Both the position numbers and the translations under genes were made by a program. The notes beneath the pieces were generated by a model, which searched no databases, had not been told where the DNA came from, and worked only from the letters and a program-made list of their open reading frames with translations. A stretch of DNA of 64,000 nt, from assembly GCF_023699475.1 (NCBI RefSeq), contig NZ_JALXFV010000003.1, positions 353,454 to 417,453 of the forward strand. The letters run 5' to 3'. The DNA comes from Halomarina rubra (GTDB taxonomy: Archaea > Halobacteriota > Halobacteria > Halobacteriales > Haloarculaceae). This document shows, piece after piece, positions 1-35,507 of this stretch. Position 1 is the stretch's first letter; each line of letters begins with the position of its first letter.

Positions 1-1508
1 ATTGTACGGAAGCACTGAAATATTAATCAGTTCCCCTTTTGTGATGCTCGAATTACGACATCACTTAGGACCGGCTAACCCTCAGCTGACAAACATTGCT
101 GAGGAACCCTTGTCCGTTAGGCCGTCGAGATTCTCACCCGACTATCGCTGCTACTATGGCCAGGATTTTCGTCACCAATCGGTCCACACGAGTTCTCACC
201 CATGCTTCCACCCAATCGGAGCGCCAACCTACGGGAACACGCGATGAAGCGTGCCGCTAGGTCTCGGTAGTGGATTTGAGCCCCGATCATTTTCGACGCC
301 CCGAACCTCGGCCGGTAAGCTGTTACGCTTTTCTTAGAGGGTAGCTGCTTCTAAGCTCACCTCCCGGCTGTCTAGGGCTCGGGACAATCTTCAATCGCAC
401 TTAATCCACATTTTGGGACCTTAACCCAGCTCTGGGTTGTCTCCCTCACGGTGCACAAGCTTACCCCGCACACCGGGCTCCCTGCGTCTACGGCGTTCGT
501 AAGTTCGGAGTTTGACAGGGGTGTCGACGCCTCTCGGCGTCGATCGCCCCAATCAGTCGCTCTACCTCACGAACTACCTTAGCAGAGGTCATGCTTCGAC
601 ATGTTTCGGTTGGAACCAGCTGTTACCGGGTTCGATGGGCCTTTCACCCCTACACATAAGTCACGAGAGGGTATTGTAGGACACCAACTCTAGCAGGCCT
701 CCACATGGCTTTCGCCATGCTTCGCCTTGCTCATGTGTAGATCACCCGGATTCGGGTCGTGTCCGCCTGACTCCCCGCGCTTAAACACGGTGGCCCTGGC
801 AATGCTGCGGCCATATTGGTTTCCCTACGCCTTCCCCGATACTCGGGTTAGACTCGTCAAACAGACACACTCCCTGGCTCGTTTTTCAAAACGTACGACG
901 AGACACCGGCTCCGTAGACATTCTACTGTGGGGTCGCCCCCATGTCGTTCTGTCCACGGCCTTTTATGCCCCGTCGCTCCATCGCCACATGATTTCAGGC
1001 CTTATTTCAACCCCTTTCTCAGGGTACTTTTCAGCGTTCGCTCACGCTACTTGTCCGCTATCGGTCTCGAGTTGTATTTAGTCTTGGCAGTCGATGCCTG
1101 CCGTCTTCTCGAGGGATTTCCAACCCCCGATACTCTGGAACAAACCTGCAATCTCCCACTCACGATACGGGGCTGTCACCCTGTATCGCCCTCCGTTCCA
1201 GGAGAGTTCTCGTGAGTCGTTGATTGCGTATGGTAAGTCCGAACACCACATTGCCCGAAGGCTTCGGTTTGGACTGTGTCGTCTTCACTCGCCGTTACTA
1301 ACGACATCCCGTTCGGTTTCTTTTCCTGTCCTTACTGAGATGTTTCAGTTTTGGACGTTCCCCATTGCGCGAAGCAATTGTGAAGGGATTCCCATTAGGA
1401 GATCTGCAGTTCTTAGCCTCCGTGCGGCTCCCTGCAGCTTTTCGCAGCTTGGCACGTCCTTCGTCGGCACTCGAGCCGAGCCATCCACCACGTGGCACAG
1501 TAGCCACG
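1..1508 (-). rRNA. rrl: 23S ribosomal RNA, 5' half (partial)
   Basis: Read on the minus strand, the segment just below 1510 starts with the archaeal 23S 5' region (GGCTACTGTGCC, then CTCGGCTCGAGTGCCGACGA) and continues through conserved large-subunit rRNA sequence to the window edge. The 3' half lies outside, so only about 1.5 kb of a roughly 2.9-kb gene is present. The exact 5' end is an estimate (a few bases either way around 1508). The gene follows 16S and tRNA-Ala in the usual euryarchaeal order, so it is transcribed from the promoter array near 3560-3918 and possibly also from a spacer promoter. Confidence 0.95.
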
Positions 1509-1675
1509 AATAATTGAATGCTCTGGACCGCGGTAAACGGGTCCAGTGAGCGCCTGGATTGCACGTACACACGGTGTCATACACACGTCCGGAGACTAAG
1601 CGGACCTGCGTCAACCCTTCCCATCCTCGCTTGCACGAGATGGTGCATCTGTCTTCATCGGAACGAGCGCCGGAT

Positions 1676-1690
1676 TGCACTTAAGCAACC
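1676..1690 (-). promoter_or_regulatory. Possible spacer promoter for 23S
   Basis: In the tRNA-Ala to 23S spacer the minus strand reads GGTTGCTTAAGTGCAATCC, which carries the haloarchaeal TATA form TTAAGT. An internal promoter in this spacer has been reported for Halobacterium, and its position fits. This is a motif match only; no transcript end is visible from sequence. Confidence 0.35.
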
Positions 1691-1709
1691 CGGTTCCGTC
1701 CCGTGAATA

Positions 1710-1781
1710 TGGACCCACTGGGATTCGAACCCAGGGCATCCTCCTTGCAAAGGAGGCACTCTCCCACTGAGCTATGGGCCC
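1710..1781 (-). tRNA. tRNA-Ala (UGC) in the rRNA spacer
   Basis: The minus strand gives a complete 72-base cloverleaf. The acceptor strand GGGCCCA pairs with TGGGTCC, with discriminator A. The D arm is AGCTCAGTGGGAGAGTG, the anticodon loop CTTTGCAAG carries TGC, and the T arm contains GGTTCGAATCC. There is no intron and no encoded CCA. tRNA-Ala between 16S and 23S is the standard arrangement in euryarchaeal rRNA operons. Confidence 0.97.
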
Positions 1782-1786
1782 TACCT

Positions 1787-1821
1787 GTTAGCCCCGGTAG
1801 TTCTGAAGTGCTCGGTCGGCC
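1787..1821 (-). other. 3' arm of the 16S processing stem (bulge-helix-bulge)
   Basis: This segment of the precursor RNA pairs with 3453-3489 on the far side of 16S. Outer helix: GAACTAC and GGGGCTAAC pair with GTTAGCCCTGG and TAGTTC. Then comes a 3-base bulge (1804-1806), a 4-bp helix (1807-1810 with 3468-3471), a 3-base bulge on the other strand (3465-3467), and the inner helix CCGACCGAG with CTCGGTCGG. The 3-4-3 geometry is that of the archaeal bulge-helix-bulge cut by the tRNA splicing endonuclease. Confidence 0.85.
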
Positions 1822-1883
1822 ACTTCGTCGTCGACGTCCGCGCCAAAGGTGAGCCAGGCACGACGGCCTGGTCTCGATCTGTG

Positions 1884-3353
<1,470 letters not shown>

Positions 3354-30226: not shown

Positions 30227-31909
30227 TCAGGAGTCGTCGAAGCGCGCCTGCACGAACGGTTGGGCGTCCTCGACCTCGCCTAGACGCGAGTCGGCCAGGA
30301 GGACGCTCTTGGTCTCGTCGAGGGGGACCGAGAGGCTCATCTCCTTGGTGCGGCCGTACCGCCCCTTCGAGACGACGACGGCGTTGACGATGCCGAGCAT
30401 GTCGAGTTCGGAGATGAGGTCGGTCACCCGCCGCTGGGTGAGCACGTCCATGTCGATCTCGTTGCAGAGGCGTTTGTAGATGTTGAACACCTCGCCCGTG
30501 TTGATGTTGTGGACGCCGTTCTCCTCCAGGAGGATGACCGCGTAGAGGACGAGTTTCGACTGCGTCGGGAGCGTCCGGACGACCTCGACGACGCGGTCCA
30601 ACTCGATCTTCTCCTGGGCGCGTCGAACGTGGGCCTCGTGGATGGTCTCGGTCCGGTCGCGTTCGGCGAGTTCACCCGCCGTCCGGAGTAGGTCGAGCGC
30701 ACGACGCGCGTCACCGTGTTCCTGGGCGGCGAACGCCGCACACAACGGGATGACGTCCTCCGAGAGCGTGTCCTCTTTGAACGCGATGTCCGAGCGATGC
30801 TGGAGGATGTCCCGGAGTTGGGTCGCGTCGTAGGGAGGAAAGACGATCTCCTCTTCGCCGAGACTCGACTTCACGCGCGGGTCGAGGAAGTCGGTGAACT
30901 TCAGGTCGTTCGAGATACCCATGATGGAGACCCGGGAGTTGTCGAGTTCGGAGTTCATCCGCGAGAGGTTGTACAGCGTGTCGTCACCGGACTTCTCGAC
31001 GAGTTTGTCGATCTCGTCGAGCATGATGACGACGACGCGTTCGCGGTAGTCGACGGCCTCGAAGAACGTCGAGTAGACGCGGTCGGTCGGCCACCCCGTC
31101 ATGGGGACGGGTTCGAACTCCTCGCGGTCGGCGTCGAGGTCCTCGATACGCTCGTCGAGCGCCTCTTCGCTGTCGAAGCCAGTTTCCTCGACGGTCGTCG
31201 TCTCCTCGTCGAGTGCCGCTCGTGTGTCTTCGAGTCGCTCCAGTTCCGACTCGATGTACGTGACGTTCTCGTCGATGAACTTGTTCGCGAGCTGTGCGAG
31301 CACGCGGTACTGCGTGTCGGTCACCTCGCAGTTGATGTACTGGACCTCGCAAGGGACCTCGTACTTCTGGGAGGTGGTCTCCAGTTCGTCGCTGACGAAC
31401 TTCGCGCTCGCGGTCTTGCCGGTCCCCGTCTTCCCGTAGATGAGGATGTTCGACGGCGTGTCGCCGCGCAACGCAGTGACGAGGATGGTCGCCATGTTGT
31501 TGATCTGCTCCTCGCGGTGCGGGAGTCGTCGTGGCGTGTACGACGGGCGGAGCACCTCCTTGTTCTCGAAGATGGGTTCGCCGCTGAGCAGGTCGTCGAA
31601 CAGTCCCGGCGACGCCTCGTCGGGCTCCGCCTCGGACGTGTCGTCGGCCACTCCGTCGGCTTCGACGCCGGCTTCGACGTCAGTTACGTCGGCGGCGACC
31701 GTCGTCGCCGACCCGTCGTCGACCGTCGGGTCGGACCCGTCGTCCGCCGTAAGTCCCTGTTCGTCGATCCCCTCGACGTCCTCGGTCACTTCGGACTCGT
31801 CGACCTCTTCGACGTCGTCCGCCTCACGTCGGCCGACGGTGTCGTCGTCTCTCGGCCGGTCGTCGCGTGCGGACGGGTCGGCGTCGGTGTTCGAATCTGT
31901 GTTCGTCAT
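30227..31909 (-). CDS. orc1: Origin recognition protein Orc1/Cdc6
   Basis: A 560-residue AAA+ initiator that binds origin boxes and loads MCM. Walker A is YGKTGTGKTASAK (GKTGTGKT at residues 159-166), Walker B is VVVIMLDEIDKL, and sensor 1 is in GISNDLKFTDF. Arginine-finger region: DPRVKSSLGEEEI. The C-terminal winged helix (LTQRRVTDLISELDMLGIV) contacts origin DNA. The first about 100 residues are an acidic, Asp/Thr/Glu-rich extension not usual in shorter archaeal Cdc6 proteins. It lies directly beside a full origin with ORB repeats and an AT-rich core, so this is very probably the initiator of the main chromosomal origin. ORB-type sequence also lies within its 5' leader, hinting at autoregulation. 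Confidence 0.96.
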   Translation of the reverse strand: MTNTDSNTDADPSARDDRPRDDDTVGRREADDVEEVDESEVTEDVEGIDEQGLTADDGSDPTVDDGSATTVAADVTDVEAGVEADGVADDTSEAEPDEASPGLFDDLLSGEPIFENKEVLRPSYTPRRLPHREEQINNMATILVTALRGDTPSNILIYGKTGTGKTASAKFVSDELETTSQKYEVPCEVQYINCEVTDTQYRVLAQLANKFIDENVTYIESELERLEDTRAALDEETTTVEETGFDSEEALDERIEDLDADREEFEPVPMTGWPTDRVYSTFFEAVDYRERVVVIMLDEIDKLVEKSGDDTLYNLSRMNSELDNSRVSIMGISNDLKFTDFLDPRVKSSLGEEEIVFPPYDATQLRDILQHRSDIAFKEDTLSEDVIPLCAAFAAQEHGDARRALDLLRTAGELAERDRTETIHEAHVRRAQEKIELDRVVEVVRTLPTQSKLVLYAVILLEENGVHNINTGEVFNIYKRLCNEIDMDVLTQRRVTDLISELDMLGIVNAVVVSKGRYGRTKEMSLSVPLDETKSVLLADSRLGEVEDAQPFVQARFDDS

Positions 31910-31914
31910 GTGTC

Positions 31915-31941
31915 CTCGACCCCTCCGTTTCGGGTGGAGTC
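31915..31941 (-). other. ORB element, orc1 leader
   Basis: On the minus strand ACTCCACCCGAAACGGAGGG followed by GTCGA: the TCCAC, GAAAC and G-run parts of an origin-recognition box. It lies only about 6 bases upstream of the orc1 start codon, so Orc1 binding here could limit its own synthesis. Confidence 0.7.
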
Positions 31942-32490
31942 AGCCCCACGCACCCGGCGAGACGGTCGTTGTTCCCCCGTAGAAGACCGCTTCTCGGAAT
32001 CGTCCCGCAGGAGTGCGTCCAGTTGATGCAGAAGAACACGAAGTCGAGACATCAATTAAACATTGTGGTCTCGGCGAACGGTCAGTGTGTCGGGACGCTC
32101 TCACCCACACGCTCGGCCGTGCGGTCTCGGAACCGCACCGTGGGAGCGACACCGGTCGTCACCGAGAGACGACGGTGCTCGAGCGGTAGACCCACGCGGC
32201 ACCCACTCGGCACGGGCCGTGTTTCCGAGTGCAGCGAGAGTGCACGGAAGCACCCCTCCTCGTCGTGGGGTGTCGTCCGCCGGTCAGGACGAGTCGGTGG
32301 ACCCCGTCCCTTCTCCTCCAACCGTCGAAGGAGACGTCGAGCGTGGGGTGAGTTCCGGTGCGGACGGGAAGGGGAGGTGGGGGTCGGATATCACCGTTCA
32401 GCGGGGAGTCGTCGACGGGGTCGTGAGAACCGCTAGCTAGCCACCTACGGACGCTCTCTCGGCAGTGCGTGTCGTTCACTCGCACCACCT

Positions 32491-32546
32491 GACCCCCCCA
32501 CCCCCTCGTTTCGGGTGGAAACGCCAAAAGGCGGGGTGGGGGGTGT
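32491..32546 (-). other. ORB element with flanking G/C-rich inverted repeat
   Basis: The box (32495-32523, minus strand) reads TTTCCACCCGAAACGAGGGG then GTGGGGGGG. It is enclosed by an inverted repeat: ACCCCCCCACCCC (32491-32504) and GGGGTGGGGGGT (32534-32545). The core itself contains the palindrome CGTTTC-gggtg-GAAACG. It faces away from the AT-rich core on its right. Confidence 0.8.
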
Positions 32547-32568
32547 GACGAGTCGCGAGCCTGGCTAG

Positions 32569-32697
32569 TCACAGAAACATTCATATACACGTCCAGCATA
32601 CCAAACCCGTACTAGAGACAACTGGTCTAATTTAGTTTATTTCTAGTGCTGTGTGTTGCTAGAATCAATTCTGCACGGTTTCTTTCTAGTTCTAGAA
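32569..32697. other. AT-rich core, likely DNA unwinding element
   Basis: The most AT-rich stretch of the origin, lying between two inverted ORB elements. Segments such as CTAATTTAGTTTATTTCTAG and AATCAATTC stand out in a genome of roughly two-thirds G+C. This is where strand opening would be expected. Six of the thirteen CTAG sites lie in or at the edge of it. Confidence 0.75.
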
Positions 32698-32755
32698 ACG
32701 AGTTCGGTCGTTCGGCCCGAGTTCGACCCGTCCCCACCCCGGTGGGTGGTGCCCG

Positions 32756-32782
32756 CTCCACACGAAACGAAGGGGTGGGGGT
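32756..32782 (+). other. ORB element, right side
   Basis: CTCCACACGAAACGAAGGGG followed by TGGGGG on the plus strand. It is the inverted partner of the box at 32495-32523 and has the same TCCAC/GAAAC/G-run layout. The phased CTAG array begins 13 bases after it. Confidence 0.8.
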
Positions 32783-32794
32783 TTCGGAGGGTGC

Positions 32795-32841
32795 CTAGAA
32801 CAGCTCTAGGGGTGTACTAGTAGCCCTCTAGCACCCTCTAG
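32795..32841. repeat. Phased array of five CTAG sites
   Basis: CTAG occurs at 32795, 32806, 32817, 32828 and 32838, so spacings are 11, 11, 11 and 10 bases, about one helical turn each. All five sites thus lie on one face of the DNA. The sequence between them is not repeated (the last two share CCCTCTAG), so the array is not a simple tandem duplication. CTAG is strongly avoided in haloarchaeal genomes and is a methylation target of the conserved Zim methyltransferase. Confidence 0.85.
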
Positions 32842-33301
32842 TATCGCGGATGCCCTCACACCACGACGGCACCACTTCGTGTCGAACCGACTCGGCTGAG
32901 GTGTGAGGCTGCGTCGCCGTCACGCTCACTACCGACTGTCGACTCGCGCCCCACCAGCCACGGTGGCGACGAGTCTCGAGGCGAGGACTGTCGGACCCGG
33001 CCCCCGTCGCTTCCGGTGGACCGACCGAGGTCGGTCACATCGAACACGGTCGCCTCGACTCGACGGGTCGAACGCGTCCGGTCCGGACTCGGCGAACCGA
33101 ACTCCGTCGGTTCGGGCGTCTCGCGCGCGTGTACGGAATCGCACTCTCGATACGCGTGTCGGGAGGCCGACCTCGACACGCTCGGTCGGACGTCTCCGCA
33201 ATATTGTCAGAAAATGTATGTATGTCTGACGCAGTGTTAAGTGAGTCGGGTCGGCTATGGCAGATAGACCCGCCCCTCGGGGCCGGGGAGGATACGCCAG
33301 G

Positions 33302-33946
33302 ATGGGACTGTTAACTGAACTCAGATCGAGTATTTCGCGCGTGACGTCGAAGCTGTTCGCGCCCGATCAGGGACCGAAGCGAATCGGTATCTACGGGCCG
33401 CCGAACGCCGGCAAGACGACGCTCGCGAACCGCATCGCCCGCGACTGGACCGGTGACGCCATCGGCCCGGAGAGCCACGTGCCTCACGAGACACGTCGTG
33501 CTCGTCGCAAGGAGAACGTCGAGATCGAACGCAACGGGAAGAGCGTCACCATCGACATCGTCGACACGCCCGGCGTGACGACGAAGGTCGACTACAAGGA
33601 GTTCCTCGAACACGACATCGAGAAGGAAGACGCCGTGCGTCGGTCCCGAGAGGCGACCGAGGGCGTCGCCGAGGCGATGCACTGGCTTCGCGAGGACGTC
33701 GACGGCGTCATCTACGTCCTCGACAGCGCGGCCGACCCGTTCACGCAGGTGAACACGATGCTCATCGGCATCATCGAGTCGAAGGACCTCCCCGTGCTCA
33801 TCTTCGCGAACAAGACCGACCTCGAGGAGTCGAGCGTCCAGCAGATCGCCAACGCGTTCCCACAGCACGAGACCGTCCCGCTGTCGGCGCTCGAAGGCGA
33901 CAACATGGACGAAGTGTACGACAAGATCGCGGAGTACTTCGGATAA
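33302..33946 (+). CDS. arvA: Small GTPase ArvA (formerly OapA)
   Basis: A 214-residue Era/Ras-like GTPase. The P-loop is GPPNAGKT (residues 32-39), G3 is VDTPG, and G4 is NKTD, with the characteristic insert VPHETRRARRKENVEIERNG. This family was named for its position beside the origin (origin-associated protein) and has been renamed ArvA after it was shown to drive extracellular vesicle formation in haloarchaea. The start at 33302 opens the conserved MGLLTELRSSISRVTSKLF; an earlier ATG at 33257 adds 15 unconserved residues. The stop overlaps arvB by one base. Promoter candidates lie at 33200-33241. Confidence 0.92.
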   Translation: MGLLTELRSSISRVTSKLFAPDQGPKRIGIYGPPNAGKTTLANRIARDWTGDAIGPESHVPHETRRARRKENVEIERNGKSVTIDIVDTPGVTTKVDYKEFLEHDIEKEDAVRRSREATEGVAEAMHWLREDVDGVIYVLDSAADPFTQVNTMLIGIIESKDLPVLIFANKTDLEESSVQQIANAFPQHETVPLSALEGDNMDEVYDKIAEYFG

Positions 33947-34350
33947 TGCCTGGCATGCAACCACCCAACGGCGCGCCCGAGACCCCCGACGGCGTCCAGA
34001 TCGACCTCATCAGTGCCGGTCGAATGTCGAACCTCCGGACGATGGAGAAGATCCGGACCATCCTCGACAGCGTCCACGACGGCAACATCGTCATCCTCGA
34101 AGACGGCCTCTCGCCCGACGAGGAGTCGAAACTCATCGAGGTGACGATGAGCGAGATCAGCCCCGACGGGTTCACCGGCATCGAGATCGAGACCTACCCC
34201 AAACCCTCGAACGACGGCGGCCTGTTCAACCGCCTGATGGGCAAGGGGTCGGACAACGACAACAAGCTGACCGTCATCGGCCCCGCCAACCGCATCGAGA
34301 CCCTCCACAAGGACGAGAACCTCATCAGCGCGCTGGTCACCCGGAGGTAA
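33946..34350 (+). CDS. arvB: ArvB (DUF2073 protein, formerly OapB)
   Basis: A 134-residue DUF2073 protein encoded between the ArvA GTPase and ArvC. Conserved features are IDLISAGRMSNLRTMEKIR, the segment NIVILEDGLSPDEESKLIE, and IGIEIETYP-like GFTGIEIETYPKP. No catalytic motif is evident. The start codon shares a base with the arvA stop (TAATG), and a ribosome-binding site for the next gene overlaps its end. It is inferred to be a partner or regulator of ArvA in vesicle formation; the biochemical role is not known from sequence. Confidence 0.9.
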   Translation: MPGMQPPNGAPETPDGVQIDLISAGRMSNLRTMEKIRTILDSVHDGNIVILEDGLSPDEESKLIEVTMSEISPDGFTGIEIETYPKPSNDGGLFNRLMGKGSDNDNKLTVIGPANRIETLHKDENLISALVTRR

Positions 34351-34355
34351 CCCCG

Positions 34356-35507
34356 GTGCCACACCAGTGTACCGCCTGCGGGCACACGTTCGAGGACGGC
34401 TCGAAGGAGATGCTGTCGGGCTGTCCGGGCTGTGGCGGCACGACGTTCCAGTTCCGCCCGAGCGGTGCGGCCGACGGGACGTCGACCGACGCGCCGGACG
34501 ACTCCGACGCGACCCCGCCAGAACGTGAGTCCGGCGGCGTCGCCGAACGCATGGGCCGCACCGCCACCGCGATGCGCGACTGGATGCACCGCGACGACGC
34601 TCCCGACAGGTCCGACACTGCCGGCGCTCCCGACACTGCCGAGACCCCCGACTCCACCGACGTCCCCGATACCACCGACGTCGAGGACGCGACCGGTTCC
34701 ACTCGAACCGACGCCGGTGACGCGGACACCGGGGTCGAAACCGGGACCGCGAGCGTCGACGAGCGGACCACTGGTGAACCGACGACCGACGAGACGCGAC
34801 CAGCAGACGCGACACGACCAGCGGACGAGAACCGTTCTCCGGACGACACACGGTCACCCGCCACCTCCGAATCGGACGACGCGGCCGCCCCAGACGCGGT
34901 CGCATCCGGCGAAGACACGGACGACGGTCTGGCCGCGTGGCCCGACCCGCCGGACGTGAGCCACGTTCGGGAGAAAGACCAGCGCGTCCACCGTCGCCGG
35001 CGACGCGCTGGGCGGTGGGGTACGGAGACCGAACAGGCGACCGAGACGGACCAGACGACTCAGACCGACCGACCGACCGAGACCGAACGGGTGGCCGAGA
35101 CGGTCGACCGGCCGACCGACGAGCCTCGCGACGACACCCCTCGGCCGAACGAGGACGGTCTCATCGTCGCCGACGAGGAATCCCTCGACGGCTCGACGGA
35201 AGACACCGCCCAGGCGAGCGCGCGGAGCGAGATGGCGCGCCCCGACGAACTCCCGCCGCGGGAGTCCGAAGCCCCCAGTTCGGGTCGCGTCGTCAGCGAA
35301 CCGAGCGGGGAGAAACCCGACATGGCCGAACTCCGCGAGGAGCTCAACGAGCAGTTCGAGTCGATCAAGATCGTCGAACCCGGTCAGTACGAACTCAACC
35401 TGATGGAGCTGTACGACCGCCAGGAGTACATCATCTCGCTCCGGGAGAACGGTCGGTACGTCATCCAGATGCCCGAAGACTGGCTCGGCGACCGCGACGT
35501 ACCGTAG
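34356..35507 (+). CDS. arvC: ArvC (OapC-type zinc-ribbon protein)
   Basis: A 383-residue protein with an N-terminal C4 zinc ribbon (HQCTACGHTF, SGCPGCGGTTFQF), a very long disordered linker of about 270 residues rich in Asp, Thr, Glu and Pro, and a compact C-terminal domain (ELREELNEQFESIKIVEPGQ; YELNLMELYDRQEYIISLRE) that defines the OapC/ArvC family. The start is GTG at 34356, placed by GGAGGT 6 bases upstream. It is the third gene of the arvABC unit. The linker has runs such as TRPADATRPADENR and ETDQTTQTDRPTETE, which suggest expansion by slippage. Confidence 0.9.
   Translation: MPHQCTACGHTFEDGSKEMLSGCPGCGGTTFQFRPSGAADGTSTDAPDDSDATPPERESGGVAERMGRTATAMRDWMHRDDAPDRSDTAGAPDTAETPDSTDVPDTTDVEDATGSTRTDAGDADTGVETGTASVDERTTGEPTTDETRPADATRPADENRSPDDTRSPATSESDDAAAPDAVASGEDTDDGLAAWPDPPDVSHVREKDQRVHRRRRRAGRWGTETEQATETDQTTQTDRPTETERVAETVDRPTDEPRDDTPRPNEDGLIVADEESLDGSTEDTAQASARSEMARPDELPPRESEAPSSGRVVSEPSGEKPDMAELREELNEQFESIKIVEPGQYELNLMELYDRQEYIISLRENGRYVIQMPEDWLGDRDVP

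Follow-up and report, generated by a model that had tools for sequence, protein, structure and literature searches.

A helically phased array of CTAG sites beside a replication origin of the haloarchaeon Halomarina

We analyzed a stretch of 64,000 nucleotides (hereafter the window; RefSeq assembly GCF_023699475.1, contig NZ_JALXFV010000003.1, positions 353,454 to 417,453) from the 4.07-Mb genome of Halomarina rubra. At 30227-35507 the window carries the conserved oriC1 neighbourhood, with orc1/cdc6 on the minus strand followed by oapA, oapB and oapC on the plus strand. The 1.4-kb gap between orc1 and oapA holds two inverted ORBs with G-strings, an inner G-rich repeat and an AT-rich region between them, which is the architecture described for oriC1 of H. 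hispanica (PMC3936714). The features of the locus are as follows.

30227-31909, minus strand: orc1/cdc6 initiator gene (Cdc6_C, Cdc6_lid, AAA)
31920-31938, plus strand: third ORB-like element next to the orc1 start
32433-32440: CTAGCTAG left of the left ORB
32495-32519, plus strand: left-hand ORB with G-string
32520-32756: inter-ORB region (AT-rich DUE) with six CTAG (32565, 32612, 32643, 32659, 32686, 32692)
32530-32543: inner G-rich repeat, left arm (counterpart of the H. hispanica oriC1 enhancer repeat)
32732-32742: inner G-rich repeat, right arm
32757-32781, minus strand: right-hand ORB with G-string; a longer inverted-repeat arm runs to 32794, right up to the array
32795-32841: helically phased array of five CTAG sites (32795, 32806, 32817, 32828, 32838)
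32873-32886: ORB-like CACTTCGTGTCGAAC just right of the array
33302-33946, plus strand: oapA (GTPase, origin-associated protein A; named from the adjacent oapB and oapC)
33946-34350, plus strand: oapB (PF09846)
34356-35507, plus strand: oapC (PF09845)

The initial annotation of this DNA had described five CTAG sites spaced 11, 11, 11 and 10 bases apart, starting 13 bases from the right ORB, and this observation was confirmed in full for positions, gaps and distance. Its further statement that the DNA between the sites is not repeated is nearly but not strictly true, since the last two units share CCCTCTAG, and TRF detects a weak 10-bp unit (score 38, 2.6 copies). In addition, the array is part of a larger CTAG cluster, which includes the six sites between the ORBs and the CTAGCTAG at 32433. 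No ORF of 100 aa or more overlaps the array on either strand, and a search for RNA families (Rfam) gave none at the site. The ORB-like CACTTCGTGTCGAAC is conserved in the sister species H. oriensis, so the array may sit between an ORB and a partial ORB.

CTAG is otherwise avoided in this DNA, as the annotation had also stated of haloarchaea. The window has 31 CTAG, against about 82 expected from shuffles; thirteen of them lie within 409 bp at 32433-32841 and nine in the rRNA operon at 1-3353 (16S, tRNA and part of 23S, minus strand), leaving nine in the other ~60 kb. The rRNA sites are in line with the published weaker avoidance of CTAG near rRNA genes. A comparison of the phasing with shuffled sequence had been proposed in advance: in dinucleotide shuffles of the orc1-oapA intergenic DNA, 0/2000 gave five CTAG in 47 bp and 0/2000 gave any triplet with 9-12-bp gaps. 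Given five sites in that span, the phase coherence has p about 0.0001-0.0004. The genome has no other triplet with 8-13-bp gaps, and the other orc genes of the same genome have 0-5 CTAG upstream and no array; the feature is therefore not general to all orc genes of this genome.

We next examined whether the number and spacing of CTAG are kept at related origins, a comparison that the annotation had also named as a test. We collected 228 orc1-oapA intergenic regions (153 after removing near-duplicates), located by OapA alone, since a periodicity histogram on loci chosen through the CTAG pattern is biased. In those with an ORB pair, CTAG density is 15.6/kb between the ORBs, 2.4 and 1.45/kb in the left and right 300-bp flanks, respectively, and 0.55/kb farther away. 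A single test on all CTAG of the intergenic region lost significance without three genera (p 0.07), but splitting the sites by position showed that only the flanks are phased. Sites between the ORBs have no helical phase (p 0.38), whereas CTAG pairs in the flanks have a period of 10.1 bp, with a mean cosine of 0.60 against 0.09 +/- 0.06 for jittered positions (0/2000 controls). The result was 0/2000 without Halomarina, 0/2000 without g10 (a genus of the family) and Halorarius, and 9/2000 when the window and H. oriensis were also left out; with one locus per genus the mean cosine was 0.605 against 0.128. Flank triplets with 9-12-bp gaps number 13, against none with gaps of 5-8 or 13-16 bp. The origins thus have two separate components, a dense unphased cluster between the ORBs and an optional phased array outside them. 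In all eight Halomarina origins we also noted a conserved TTTCTAGTYCTAG pair (gap 6) near the right end of the AT-rich region (32673-32695 in the window), whose sites are half a turn apart and not a full turn.

The flank arrays differ in side and layout between lineages. On the right side they were found in two Halomarina species, in the window (14, 25, 36, 47 and 57 bp from the ORB) and in H. oriensis (14, 35, 45, 55 and 64 bp; gaps 21, 10, 10, 9). In these two the first CTAGAACAG aligns and the later spacers differ, and one site is missing so that a gap is two turns. On the left side arrays were found in Halorarius and g10 (gaps 20-21, 11, 9, 20), in a g10 variant (21, 10, 9, 29, 32), in two loci of genus g31 from another family, f5 (9, 10, 29-30, 12), and in three Halomarina species (17 or 19, 10, then 12 or 34), although taken singly the arrays of these last three species are not significant for phase. 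The two g31 loci have a single CTAG between the ORBs, and represent an array without the inter-ORB cluster. In pairwise alignments of Halorarius and g10 arrays, for pairs with the standard layout, all 20 CTAG columns are identical while other columns are 31-44% identical, which is the pattern of selection on CTAG and on its spacing, not on the spacer sequence.

These data bear on the possibility that the array is a by-product, in which CTAG is generally tolerated at origins (noncoding DNA, relaxed avoidance or mutational input) and a short tandem duplication of a 10-11-bp unit made the regular spacing. The shared CCCTCTAG, the weak TRF signal and the restriction of flanking arrays to some lineages would fit this view. 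However, there is no tandem repeat in the arrays of H. oriensis, g10, Halorarius or g31, CTAG is kept while spacers diverge to about 40% identity, the phase recurs in at least three lineages without the window's array, and other intergenic DNA at the same loci has CTAG at only 0.55/kb. We consider this explanation the least likely, and already disfavoured.

Phased CTAG triplets were mostly found near initiator genes. In a scan of the family, 23 of 29 examined loci with a 9-12-bp triplet have an orc1/cdc6 gene within 1.5 kb, of which 16 are the oriC1 origin and 7 are paralogous orc genes; a further locus with only a short weak match was not counted. In a scan of the order with strict 10-11-bp gaps, 26 of 293 genomes have a triplet, and in 21 of these 26 the sampled locus is next to orc1/cdc6 or oapA, within 1.5 kb of an orc1/cdc6 gene. 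Part of this association follows from CTAG density at origins, and the phase tests are the part that density cannot explain. Dense CTAG runs, some of them phased, were seen at fourteen loci beside paralogous orc1/cdc6 genes (28-36% identical to the window's Orc1), so secondary origins share the feature. In eleven genomes the OapA match was split into two pieces within one long open frame, with residues about 38-44 at the break, which suggests a probable intein in the P-loop region of OapA.

The genome encodes a 359-aa PF01555 protein with an SPPY motif (contig C11 of this genome, 24691-25767), belonging to a conserved orphan methyltransferase (MTase) family whose members were found in 268 of 293 genomes of the order, with good-quality absences concentrated in the family that includes Halorubrum (f4), Halorubrum above all. 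This matches the published profile of the orphan CTAG m4C enzyme (PMC6471742, PMC10609329); the fit is by phylogenetic profile and specificity was not assayed, so whether this protein is the CTAG enzyme is left undecided. Within the family, 95 of 96 good genomes have it. The exception, the g10 genome G332, keeps ORBs but has no CTAG in 1032 bp of intergenic DNA, whereas five congeners have 6-12 including the phased array. This is one genome at 90% completeness, so it is suggestive only. Conversely, some f4 genera, such as g46, have the enzyme but no CTAG cluster, so the enzyme is not sufficient; the two observations together do not settle whether clusters follow the enzyme. Across the order, a strict triplet was found in 0 of 21 good MTase-negative genomes, but the base rate is only about 10%, so this is not significant. 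G332 has four GATC in the left flank (-126, -50, -24 and -13 from the left ORB), two of them 11 bp apart, a possible motif switch with another methyltransferase; however, a Dam-type protein is present in G332 but also in congeners that keep CTAG, and no conclusion could be drawn.

The annotation had inferred a methylation- or protein-read control array in the spirit of GATC/SeqA at bacterial oriC, an interpretation that our results support only in part. The place is a replication origin, CTAG is otherwise avoided, a member of the MTase family is present, and the phasing is more than chance and recurs at related origins, with H. oriensis showing the same kind of array at the same distance from the ORB with different spacer DNA. 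Relatives with the same gene neighbourhood but without CTAG enrichment or with random spacing had been named beforehand as evidence against it, and this condition is only partly fulfilled: most such relatives lack the flanking array, including one whose OapA is 97% identical and many that have the MTase, although nearly all of the family keep the CTAG cluster between the ORBs.

In our preferred reading, held with about even confidence, the array is a flanking control module of the oriC1-type origin. Five CTAG sites, presumably N4-methylated at cytosine by the orphan MTase, would be set on one face of the helix directly beside the right ORB, where an oligomeric protein that distinguishes their methylation state (for example hemimethylated sites just after replication) would bind cooperatively, hinder or help Orc1 loading at the adjacent ORB, and so time initiation. 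Our analysis demonstrates the array itself, its uniqueness in the genome, phasing beyond chance in several lineages, the conservation of CTAG over spacers and the association with orc1/cdc6 genes; that the sites are methylated, that a reader protein exists and that it acts on initiation are inferences, as no methylation was measured and there is no methylome for this genome, no reader protein is known or was searched for, and no effect on initiation was shown. The array lies outside the minimal oriC1 known from H. hispanica, so regulation fits better than a core role. A more specific version, which we regard as doubtful although not excluded, is an archaeal counterpart of origin sequestration, in which a still unknown protein binds hemimethylated m4C-CTAG cooperatively along one helix face outside the ORBs and limits re-initiation by Orc1, a methylation-read replication clock that arose independently of Dam/SeqA.

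Two other explanations were considered and appear unlikely. The array could be the cooperative operator of a methylation-independent DNA-binding protein (an origin repressor or activator, or a nucleoid protein) whose recognition core happens to be CTAG, consistent with a weak extended pattern around flank CTAG (Y-W-CTAG-W-R) and with phased spacing being typical of cooperative binding. However, the core is exactly the orphan-MTase target, CTAG is also dense and unphased between the ORBs, array and cluster are lost in the MTase-lacking relative, and the array sits about 370 bp upstream of the likely oapA promoter region and far from orc1, so it is not an ordinary promoter operator. Alternatively, and somewhat less likely still, CTAG could serve as a flexible, kinkable tetramer, one per turn, making DNA that wraps easily around a protein core such as the haloarchaeal histone-like protein or an Orc1 assembly, with methylation irrelevant. 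This possibility is real, since YTAR tetramers at ~10-bp spacing, CTAG above all, are strong nucleosome-positioning elements (PMC2880596), H. salinarum HpyA binds regions with 10.4-bp periodicity (PMC10128011), and the fitted period is 10.0-10.8 bp. Against it, the phase is carried by CTAG alone, as other TA steps in the arrays sit mostly at +/-3 bp and not in phase; CTAG columns are fully conserved, not drifting to TTAA or CTAA; G332 lost CTAG and kept no visible phased TA steps; and CTAG between the ORBs is not phased at all.

The role of the haloarchaeal CTAG orphan methyltransferase has been an open question since it was found, and published work offers only density of CTAG near origins. 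A compact, phased module that can be shifted by half a turn, methylated or unmethylated, and placed in or out of a plasmid origin makes the question directly testable, and gives a concrete bait for finding the reader protein. If the idea holds, Archaea evolved a methylation-read control of initiation independently of bacteria.

The closest known systems are the CTAG clusters upstream of orc1/cdc6 in haloarchaea, whose correlation with the orphan m4C MTase and possible role in replication control, like that of Dam/SeqA, are already published (Blow et al. 2016, PMC4752239, Fig 6D; HG1 in PMC10609329; cHG U in PMC6471742). The locus described here shares the motif, the genomic place and, judged by phylogenetic profile, the methyltransferase family, and its CTAG is dense in noncoding DNA upstream of orc1/cdc6, as in those clusters. 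A study of Haloferax volcanii was more sceptical, with high CTAG density at only one origin and no growth defect in the MTase deletion strain (PMC5867850), though origins are dispensable there. A term search of the 2016 paper found no treatment of spacing, and the phased module outside the ORBs, a separate part from the inter-ORB cluster, appears to be new, although only open-licence papers were searched and an earlier description elsewhere cannot be ruled out. The cis elements of H. hispanica oriC1 (ORB, G-string, inner G-rich enhancer repeat; PMC3936714) are present here in the same architecture, but that minimal origin ends at the ORBs, and the CTAG array lies outside it and is not described there. 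Phased YTAR/CTAG nucleosome-positioning sequences (PMC2880596) also place CTAG at about one helix turn, but there is no evidence of histone binding here. Finally, Dam/GATC/SeqA at enterobacterial oriC likewise involves a palindromic 4-bp target of an orphan MTase clustered at the origin, and SeqA in vitro needs two sites on one face phased by integral helix turns (PMC5145175), a spacing that the sites described here have. The two differ in that the modification here is m4C-CTAG (inferred) and not m6A-GATC, no SeqA homologue was identified, the archaeal initiator system is Orc1/ORB, and the GATC sites of E. coli oriC are themselves not helically phased (PMC5145175), whereas these are.
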